Part shown: positions 5,645 to 64,000 of the stretch, in pieces
Position numbering within the stretch: position 1 is the stretch's first letter
Layout: every line of letters begins with the position of its first letter
Assembly (NCBI GenBank): GCA_017506865.1
Contig: JAFCMP010000151.1
Span: 1-64,000 of the forward strand
DNA length: 64,000 nt
Reading direction: 5' to 3'
From: Tribonema minus
Taxonomy: Eukaryota; Sar; Xanthophyceae; Tribonematales; Tribonemataceae
Translations under genes and position numbers: made by a program
The notes under the pieces: generated by a model
Database searches by the model: none
What the model saw: the letters and a program-made list of their open reading frames with translations, nothing else
What the model was told of the DNA's origin: nothing

Positions 5645-8600
5645 TTACAGCACTGCCAGGCAGGGCGTACAGTCCCGTTTTGGGTTAGGGTTAGGGCCAG
5701 GCTTGCGATGCACCGCCGGCGCGCGGTACGGCGCGGGTAGTAGGGCCAGGGTCAGGGTCAGTGTTAGGGTTAGGGTTAGGGCTGGGGTTACGGTTAGGCT
5801 TGGGGTAAAGTCGCAGGGCCGCGCGTGTACGCAGGCCGCTGAGACATGCCGCAGCTCGAGCAGTGCATGCTGCCGGCCGACGCGTGCGGGAAATGTCAGC
5901 TGCGCCAGCGCTGGCTGTGCCGCGCGCCCCGCCGCCGCCGCTGCCTCTCCACGTGTGCGCAATACGAACCGCCGTTCAAGCTCGGAAGAAGTATACACAA
6001 TTGGCATAGTGCCAAGCCTGTCATCATGCACATCTGCAGCCTTCCCACGTGTACGCAATACGAACCGCTATGCGAATTTTAAAGCTCGCTCGAAAGGCAT
6101 TGTGCCAAGCCTGCCATCATACACACTGCAGCAGTCGGCTAAGCACAGCGGCTGAGTGCATGCTTTGCGCATGCTTCGCACATGTGATTCGCGATGTGGC
6201 AGCAGCAAGCAGCCTTGCAAAGCGCAGGCTTCTCCCATCCACTCTATTCGCCCGTGCCAACGAAGTCTGATCGACAGATCGCTGCCACACACGCGGCACT
6301 CGACAGGTGGCACTCATTTCCCCGCCTCTTAGCGCCTCTGGCTGGTACCTGAAGTGTTGGCTTCGTTGTGTGCCAAAATTGTCAAAAATGTTCAGCGTTC
6401 AGGTACATCTACATGGCTGGCTGGTTCCTGAAAGTTTTGGCTTCGTTGTGCGCCAGAGTTGTCAAAAATGTTGAGCGTGTAGGTGCAAAAATATAGCACA
6501 CGTACCAGGCACGCGGCCATGAATGAAGTGGCGGCGGCGCTGGCGTGCTGGGGCAGCGGCGGGAGGGCGTTGGGCTGCAGAAGCAGCTTGTAGACCTGCG
6601 CGGGGGGGCGATTCAGATGGGCAGCGGGGGGGGGGGGGGTGGCGGGGCGTTGCTGGTCACTGACTGCTGCACACGGAGTGCTGCAAGGGAACGTGCTAGC
6701 GGTACATCAATGGCACAGCACGAAGGATGACTCTACAGCAGCGCCGGCTGACAGTCAGGGCTAGGGCCAGGGTCACATGCCGCGGTAGCGTAGCTTCAAC
6801 GGACTGTCGATGGCGGCAGCGCAGCTAACATGCTTCGCATCCCGGGCCAAGGCGCAGCGCGTGGCGGTCGTGGCGGCCGCAGCAGCTATGTCTGTCAACC
6901 AGCTTGTCGACCTGCTAATCGACATGCATCGGCAGCTGTTTGCCACACCTGTGCTCCTGCGCATTAGCCTGCAAATGCATAGTATTCTGCTGCACAGGTC
7001 ACAGAGGGGCTTTTGGCCTAAGTTCAACTGACCAGTGGGGGGGGGGTACTGTAAGAGAGTGATCAGAAACACTGTACTGCAGTTGTGTTGAACGGGTGCC
7101 ATCGCTGTTGTACAGGTACCGCGATAAGTTGCATCCACGACGCCCAGGTGCAACACTTGCAGTTGTTGCACGCAGCTATTAGATGGCTGGCATCTCAGGG
7201 CCTCATGCTCATCAGCAACTCTCGCTGTGAGCGTACTAAAGGCCAAATAATTGACGCTCACACTGCTACCAGGGTCTTCAATTACCTTGCTACACTTTCA
7301 CTGCCACCTTGTTGGTTACTCATGCCGCCTTAGAGGTGGCAACCTGATATGCAACAGACGGCATGCAGAGGTGTAATGCATGGGTGCGCGCTGCCACCGC
7401 ACCCCTGATGAACGTATGGTCGCAGCTGCAATCGCATAGATGCGCCCGCTGCAAGTAGTGGTGCTCCCCCCCCCCCCCCCAGAAGTCAATGGCTTCGACC
7501 GGCACGACCGACAAAATTAATAGCCGCCGCCTTGCACAGTAGGGTCAGAAGGGGACTTGGGGTTTTGAGGTTTCTGTCATAATTCAAGATCAAATTCAAG
7601 GTGGAAGTTCTTGTTGAATTGTTTGTTCGGTTGCATCACCTGCCGTCCGCCGCCTTGCAGACTAGAGTTATTCGGAGACGTACGGTTGAGGTATCGTATC
7701 CCAGTTCATTTTTTTAATGGAAATAACCTTTTTGTTGAAGTTGTTTGGTTGTGTCACCTGACGGCTGCTCGCCACGCCCAGGGCCGACCACGGCGCCGCG
7801 CCGGTAAGCATCTCCAGAACCGTCCCCCCAAAGCTGCAGGGGGGGGGGGGGGAGGGAGGGGCACGCGCATGGCTCAGACATCGCACGCGCACTCATGATT
7901 TTCTGTACTCGTACTTTCCCATGTGTGTCAGGGGAGAGTCACATCGATACTGGAACTAGGCGTGGCCCGGTCGATGAAATGCGATGCAAGGCATTTCACC
8001 CAAGACTGCAGGGGGGGGGGGGGGGGGGGGCACGCGCATGGCTCAGACACCGCGCGCGCACTCGCGAATTTCTGTACTTCAAATGAAGTATACGTACTCT
8101 CCCATGTGTATTCAGAGAGAGTCGCATCGATACTGGGATTAGTGTTTGAGGTACAAAAAACATGTCTACACCTATGTACTTCATGTGTGGGCACGGCAGA
8201 GGCAGCCAAGGGTGCAGGGGAGGGGGGGCACGCGCATGGCTGAGGCACTGCGCGCGCAGTCGTGAACTGGTGTATACTCTTCCCATGAGTATATGTGCTG
8301 AGAGAGTCACATCAACACTGGAACTAGTACACAAGGTGTATGATACATGTTGCACCTACTTCAAGTGTGGGCACTTCAGAAGTATTGTACGCTGAAACAC
8401 CGAGAAGCTGGCTGTTGAGGTGCATACGATGCGATATGTAGCCCAAGTAGGTCATAATCATAGAAGTACCTCAGTAGTGTATACCACATAGCAGATCTGT
8501 ATTTCAGAGTACGAGAAGCATATGCACACATCGCCAAGTGCATACATATCCTTCATACGGCAGCACATGCATGCTTTGAAGTACTTCAACTTGTACTTCA

Positions 8601-64000: not shown

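Follow-up and report, generated by a model that had tools for sequence, protein, structure and literature searches.

Intronic minisatellites are tandem arrays whose units measure tens to hundreds of bases and whose copy number is variable. The arrays described here in the xanthophyte alga Tribonema minus differ in that their units hold coding sequence together with a splice site, and many of them are degenerate or separated by spacers. Fill-in by CST-Pol alpha-primase coupled to end joining also yields short tandem duplications, as seen in mouse and human cells after induced breaks (PMC8355091). The likeness lies in duplications that are small, head to tail and independent of repeats or elements; the assay, however, concerns protruding ends of tens of bases, whereas the T. 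minus duplications are old, diverged and about 60-330 bp long. Membership of that class would entail dependence on CST, 53BP1 and Ku.

Tandem duplication has likewise been described as a route of intron gain, in the potato RdRp gene (PMC4974935) and in Drosophila (PMC2891723). Insofar as those accounts are considered here, the common element is a tandem duplication that places a second copy of a splice signal within a gene. The introns of T. minus, in contrast, pre-exist at positions common to paralogs and are lengthened by the copies: introns 2-6 of the MHYT genes occupy identical positions whether or not a paralog carries arrays, rather than being absent before the duplication. Direct repeats at exon-intron borders are also the subject of Rogers and Bendich 2025 (PMC11782384), which, in the part relevant here, compares the two borders of an intron and reports repeats of 4-30 bp, while in T. 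minus the aligned copies span about 24-110 bases and are confined to a single side of the border. Among the open-access titles and abstracts listed, we found no description of such a junction-copy pattern in Xanthophyceae.

The window, i.e. the whole 64-kb stretch of DNA that was analysed (positions 1-64000 of contig C151), contains three MHYT genes, A and B on the plus strand and C on the minus strand, and a kinase gene on the minus strand, of which a subset of the exons was located. Two further MHYT paralogs lie on contigs C85 and C45. Exon edges of the five paralogs were derived from GT-AG sites and from aligning the paralogs with one another. Two deposited proteins were recovered with the MHYT-C exons as query, JKP88DRAFT_289686, the model of MHYT-A, and JKP88DRAFT_288001, that of the C85 paralog; both agree with the predicted edges at most shared positions, and include some copies as exons. 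MHYT-C is devoid of intron 1 (window 57434-57538, minus strand), which A, B, C85 and C45 possess, and in the C85 paralog this intron is located a few codons upstream. Since exons 1 and 2 of MHYT-C are fused, the MHYT-C exon numbers of the first-pass annotation, made by reading the sequence, may be one lower than ours. An EEP gene with arrays, also listed there, was not found among the reading frames scanned: none of 20 between 60.8 and 64 kb matched a Pfam family at E 0.1, and eight other reading frames of the window matched just MHYT, RVT_1 and DEP.

For kinase and TCP-1 genes on other contigs, introns were predicted from exon pairs neighbouring in the Pfam profile, using the MHYT-trained site model. 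The complete set holds 66 predicted introns (28 MHYT, 4 window kinase, 18 other kinase and 16 TCP-1). Dropped from it were the kinase loci L024 (a near-copy of L023), L021 (an intron without solution) and L022 (a GC donor, and a relative of L021), as well as, for TCP-1, the fifth intron of L037 (score 2.6, cut-off 5), L040 (without a usable pair), one L039 exon pair without solution and all exon pairs with a profile gap. Kinases were exempt from the score cut-off of 5, which retained L020 (4.7) and L033 (3.8, GC donor); the acceptor of L033 counts among the five spanned acceptors of the independent set considered below. Among the located exons of the window kinase, the first and the last lacked a partner exon and their donors were excluded; the donors of MHYT exon 7 were left unset.

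A junction was taken as spanned when a direct copy no more than 1.5 kb away included 10 bases on each side of it at E<1e-3. By this measure, exon edges bordered by degenerate copies of themselves are real: they occur at 12 of the 42 junctions of the window (21 introns, in the three MHYT genes and the kinase) and at 27 of the 132 junctions of all 66 introns, although their presence "at most exons", as originally stated, was too strong a claim. Copy number reaches 7 at one junction (L039), as in the range of 1-7 given before, and adjacent units measure 60-332 bp (median 113.5) instead of 45-230 bp.

Unless otherwise indicated, the exons below rest on paralog alignment and the copies on self-BLAST plus the junction test. 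In MHYT-A, exon 3 (29195..29506, also delimited by AG/GT..AAG/GT edges and the deposited protein P0001) is followed at offset 368 by a copy of its end, donor and intron start (29849..29985), and further on by two more copies containing intron sequence only (30032-30193). The donor of exon 5 (31515..31667, GT-AG) is crossed by an array with a unit of ~100 bp (31621..31875; TRF and self-BLAST, offsets +98 and +200), and the acceptor of exon 7 has an upstream copy at 90% identity (32782..32882, offset -231). The end of exon 7 is itself duplicated with the sequence that follows (33135..33668; self-BLAST and deposited model), and the copy is annotated as the C-terminal exon in the deposited MHYT-A model (about 33417-33485). 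Copies had been assigned to exons 3, 5 and 7 of this gene, which holds for the donors of the first two and the acceptor of the third.

In MHYT-B, five donor copies (offsets 183, 290, 391, 492 and 595) form an array at 40622..41319 at exon 5 (40516..40668, GT-AG). Exon 6 (42503..42613) is copied on both sides, with its acceptor region repeated upstream (42219..42341, offset -235) among additional intron repeats (42169-42511, self-BLAST) and its donor downstream (42688..42876, offsets 110 and 218). Exon 4, named in the earlier reading together with exons 5 and 6, presents a short copy below the threshold; similar short copies of 29-36 bp are found at MHYT-A exon 4, at this exon and at the MHYT-C exon 5 donor. 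A CGG repeat of 188 bp (window 45111-45298) also lies inside a long open frame, where it encodes a polyglycine tract.

MHYT-C, on the minus strand, has five downstream copies of the exon 3 donor (55429..55986; offsets 164, 259, 368, 488 and 594; exon at 56073..56384, GT-AG). Exon 4 (54784..54945, GT-AG) has downstream donor copies at 53989..54738 (offsets 142, 567, 662 and 753, with weaker others) and upstream acceptor copies at 55031..55343 (offsets -105 and -326, with a weak one at -70 nearer the exon), while the acceptor of exon 5 (52957..53109) has a single upstream copy near 53,400 (offset -293) that matches CTG-rich sequence at other loci. Of exons 2-6 as first proposed, copies thus stand, in our numbering, at the donors of 3 and 4 and the acceptors of 4 and 5; at exons 6 and 7 no copy reached the spanning threshold. 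In the kinase, copies had been attributed to exons 3, 4, 5, 7, 10 and 11. They are present at the donors of two exons, and 6 of the 8 tested edges fell below the same threshold. The first exon, 12152..12249 (minus strand; its 5' coordinate is provisional), has its donor repeated 441 and 740 bp further downstream, inside 11231-11796, and the second, 10133..10241 (minus strand), has a short 27-bp donor copy at +188 (junction test). A 42-bp array of this gene (8800-8921) terminates at an acceptor AG; it is one-sided and below the spanning threshold.

The arrangement of these copies follows a simple rule. Across the 66 introns of the MHYT, kinase and TCP-1 genes, donor copies lie downstream in 41 of 41 cases and acceptor copies upstream in 17 of 18, the one exception, at +432 in the C85 paralog, being a weak match of 24 bp, and no inverted junction-spanning copy was found. 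This geometry, said in the first pass to be invariant, is also visible from HMM matches alone, independently of DNA comparison, at three places among 56 chaperonin hits: on C51 and C135 copies of an exon start lie upstream, and on C5 a copy of an exon end lies downstream, the latter being the L039 array. The geometry is best read as the outcome of selection acting on splicing and on the coding sequence, the cause that had been suggested for it.

A different origin, the insertion of dispersed intron-borne elements (introners) beside exons, would place similar intron sequences at many unrelated loci. One such stretch of ~60 bp does lie inside the MHYT-C exon-3 array (window 55987-56044) and has many genome copies on other contigs. 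However, of the 59 junction copies 2 resemble a fetched locus beyond their own gene family or locus; one of these is CTG-rich, and the other links the related kinases L030 and L028. When a 2-kb array region was used as query against the genome, the matches listed, with 40 of 373 candidates scored, were the MHYT paralogs, one further place on C279 that matches exon 4, and the ~60-bp element. Among the fetched loci and in this one search, similar intron sequences at many unrelated loci were therefore not seen, and introners are a scarcely credible source of the arrays.

The abundance of local repeats was surveyed in 22 sources of 270.5 kb in total, namely the window and 21 other T. minus loci. 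At distances of up to 2 kb there are 179 direct against 5 inverted repeat pairs, whereas distant pairs (>2 kb, mostly within the window) show no direct-strand bias (35 direct, 47 inverted). The self-comparison of the window, proposed earlier as a check, gave 84 direct and 2 inverted pairs at <2.5 kb. Five regions holding MHYT genes, including the two on off-window contigs, were each shuffled five times with dinucleotides preserved, and none of the 25 shuffles yielded a near direct pair. The duplications are local and direct-only, with same-strand copies lying close together, and appear tandem in character; the frequent local duplication process suggested at first is borne out. Repeat-pair identity runs from 68% (5th percentile) to 94% (95th percentile); 52 of the 179 near direct pairs are adjacent within 10 bp, and the remainder are spaced apart or are non-neighbouring copies of an array.

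Near direct repeats cover 29% of the introns of the window, 18% of the exons and 9% of the sequence outside the four gene spans, a class that still contains unannotated genes (circular-shift p 0.003). Introns with more repeat bases are longer (rho 0.50, p 3e-4, n=50 introns), and repeats are found in 2 of 11 introns below 400 bp versus 26 of 39 longer ones. Short, old head-to-tail duplications are abundant in T. minus introns. Nothing was found in favour of the arrays being artefacts of assembly. Of 258 near direct pairs, just 3 are at least 98% identical and 58 are under 75%, and arrays are present in unrelated genes on many contigs, which makes this explanation most improbable.

Other repeats of the window deserve mention. 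An inverted pair of ~320 bp (16242-16561 and 20966-21285), mostly 88-100% identical in translated comparison, lies at the end of a 537-aa reading frame (19573-21186) that has no Pfam match. Interstitial TTAGGG/CCCTAA clusters are also present (e.g. 15830-15883, 50669-50722 and 60567-60632), and the contig may be subtelomeric. We considered such telomere repeats as the scar of a break-repair partner and rejected them, since 12 clusters in the 64 kb of the window against 1 in the other 206.5 kb mark them as a feature of this contig and not of arrays generally.

Whether exon edges are preferred was addressed by comparing junctions with intron interiors, a test that had been put forward as able to refute a link between arrays and exon edges. 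The expected spanning rate was taken from ~40 positions per intron interior, in 65 of the 66 introns, as the 97-bp intron of L015 has no interior. In the MHYT genes, 11 of 28 donors and 6 of 28 acceptors are spanned, with 5.6 of each expected (p 0.003 and 0.51). The window kinase has 2 of 4 donors and 0 of 4 acceptors (expected 0.9), the other kinases 2 of 18 and 4 of 18 (expected 2.5), and TCP-1 1 of 16 and 1 of 16 (expected 2.1). The independent set, formed by the other kinases and TCP-1 (34 introns), therefore has 3 donors and 5 acceptors for 4.5 expected each (joint p 0.76): in these genes junction density equals intron density. Over all 66 introns, donors number 16 and acceptors 11 with 11.1 expected (p 0.04 and 0.59), and an interim count of 50 introns had given 15 and 10 with 9.0 expected (p 0.008 and 0.40). 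The idea that exon edges are special thus mostly fails: the refuting outcome put forward earlier applies outside MHYT, where edges are spanned no more often than the intron interior, and not inside it. A general bias of donors over acceptors was also discarded, since the 11 versus 6 of MHYT is reversed, 3 versus 5, in the independent genes.

The MHYT donors are the place where duplication targeted to exon edges, for instance by AG/GT microhomology, R-loops or the splicing machinery, might be sought. Their excess becomes stronger with a stricter whole-region detection applied to MHYT only, in which 15 of 56 junctions are spanned against 8.0 expected for positions drawn from the same introns, a value reached by 0 of 5000 draws. 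Donors account for this excess, with 11 of 28 spanned as against 4 of 28 acceptors; under the same detection, 25% of interior positions are spanned for introns, compared with 12% for exons and 3.5% for gene flanks. Donor arrays occur at exon 3 and at exon 5 in four of the five paralogs each, i.e. in 8 of 10 cases versus 3 of 18 for other exons (Fisher p 0.003, for a grouping picked post hoc). Nevertheless, the 34 independent introns show no excess, acceptors have no significant excess in any intron set, and the conservation of exons favours the detection of pairs that cross an edge and would by itself yield some excess. We consider targeting to be quite improbable; the surplus at MHYT donors may be genuine or may combine exon-half conservation, shared ancestry and family choice.

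The copies differ in age and in number among paralogs. Exon 3 copies resemble the exon of their own gene at 82-88% in C, 81% in C85, 82% for the nearest C45 copy and 62% in A, and the exon of other paralogs at 64% at most (49% at most for the A copy); two shorter C45 copies reach just 49-52%. Likewise, exon 6 copies are 74-82% identical to their own exon in B and 63-66% in C85, versus 62% at most in other paralogs. As the exon 3 copies of C and C85, the nearest one of C45 and the exon 6 copies of B and C85 are most like their own gene, their origin, or else their homogenisation, postdates the divergence of the paralogs, and an independent origin (or later homogenisation) is observed in several paralogs. 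Exon 5 is different: its end plus the first 52 intron bases are 75-88% alike among A, B, C and C45, and because the copies are not sorted by gene and the spacing in A and B is near 100 bp, this array may be older. Kinase paralogs with a common intron also vary, with a donor copy in L026 and L030 and none in L027 and L028.

L023 and L024 differ by 38 substitutions in 9870 columns, and both of their indels of at least 15 bp resemble tandem-unit changes, one of 22 bp identical to its neighbour and one of 19 bp at 79%, far shorter than array units. These 9.8-kb stretches on two contigs, with 0.4% substitutions, hint at haplotype or recent duplicate contigs, as do the equal kinase match scores on C144, C223 and C278.

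As for the copied splice sites, 38 of the 41 donor copies retain GT, and in a site model built from MHYT donors 37 of them reach or exceed the score of the lowest real donor among the donors with copies, in agreement with the many decoy splice sites foreseen. Control GTs within intron repeats are retained in 908 of 1360 pairs but, given that the real donor is unable to change, a fair expectation lies near 0.82, our own estimate for one-sided drift from these controls. Selection for copied donors, prompted by a GT retention that is high relative to all neighbours, was rejected because the excess shrinks, without vanishing, with these controls and one-sided drift; donor copies are not purged, and are at most mildly favoured. 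Their exon half is 86% and their intron half 80% identical, near the expectation if the copy alone drifts.

The retained GTs, a possibly old exon 5 array and the deposited models would fit functional copies, with spare donors giving alternative splicing or in-frame mini-exons and selection keeping the arrays. In the C85 model JKP88DRAFT_288001, two copies of the exon-3 tail, of about 66-69 bp, and one copy each from exons 6 and 7 serve as in-frame exons (array-copy exons at L035 coordinates 2828-3034, 5320-5376 and 5736-5777), and JKP88DRAFT_289686 uses one exon-7 copy. These models, however, may be ab initio, and the copies they call in-frame exons may represent true exon gain or annotation error. 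Furthermore, the codon differences between copy and exon are mostly non-synonymous (96 of 145), and the synonymous excess (49 versus 32.5 expected) is attainable from real-exon constraint alone; in 10 of the 41 copies the exon part contains a stop or a gap that shifts the frame, and acceptor AG retention (14 of 18, expected 13.1) is at background. In codon differences, frame changes and stops, no coding signature was found for the 41 copies in general, and we judge their being functional decidedly unlikely. In a related reading, edge-crossing tandem duplication would be a continuing route of exon birth, with MHYT exon 3 and 5 donors repeatedly duplicated in separate paralogs, the copied donors kept and some copies spliced as in-frame mini-exons that lengthen the protein; this, too, we hold to be unlikely.

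Taken globally, we favour, with a probability of about 0.78, a frequent, nearly neutral local tandem duplication that does not target exon edges, with the possible exception of some MHYT donors, and whose geometry comes from selection. Mechanistically, stretches of about 60-330 bp would be frequently duplicated head to tail, presumably by break repair with fill-in or by replication slippage. Those falling within introns would be nearly harmless and would accumulate, diverge and lengthen the introns, their fixation probably being near neutral. When a duplication crosses an exon edge, the allele would survive only while splicing keeps the outer site, which would leave the spare copy in the intron, downstream of a donor or upstream of an acceptor. 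Against this reading stand the MHYT donor excess, the mild donor excess over all introns and a GT retention above ~0.82.

The copies call for caution with gene models in such genomes, which may count intron copies as exons. The dozens of duplicated donors beside true ones constitute a natural set for studying the choice between near-identical splice sites. More broadly, plain tandem duplication together with selection can yield a striking, seemingly designed pattern at exon edges.
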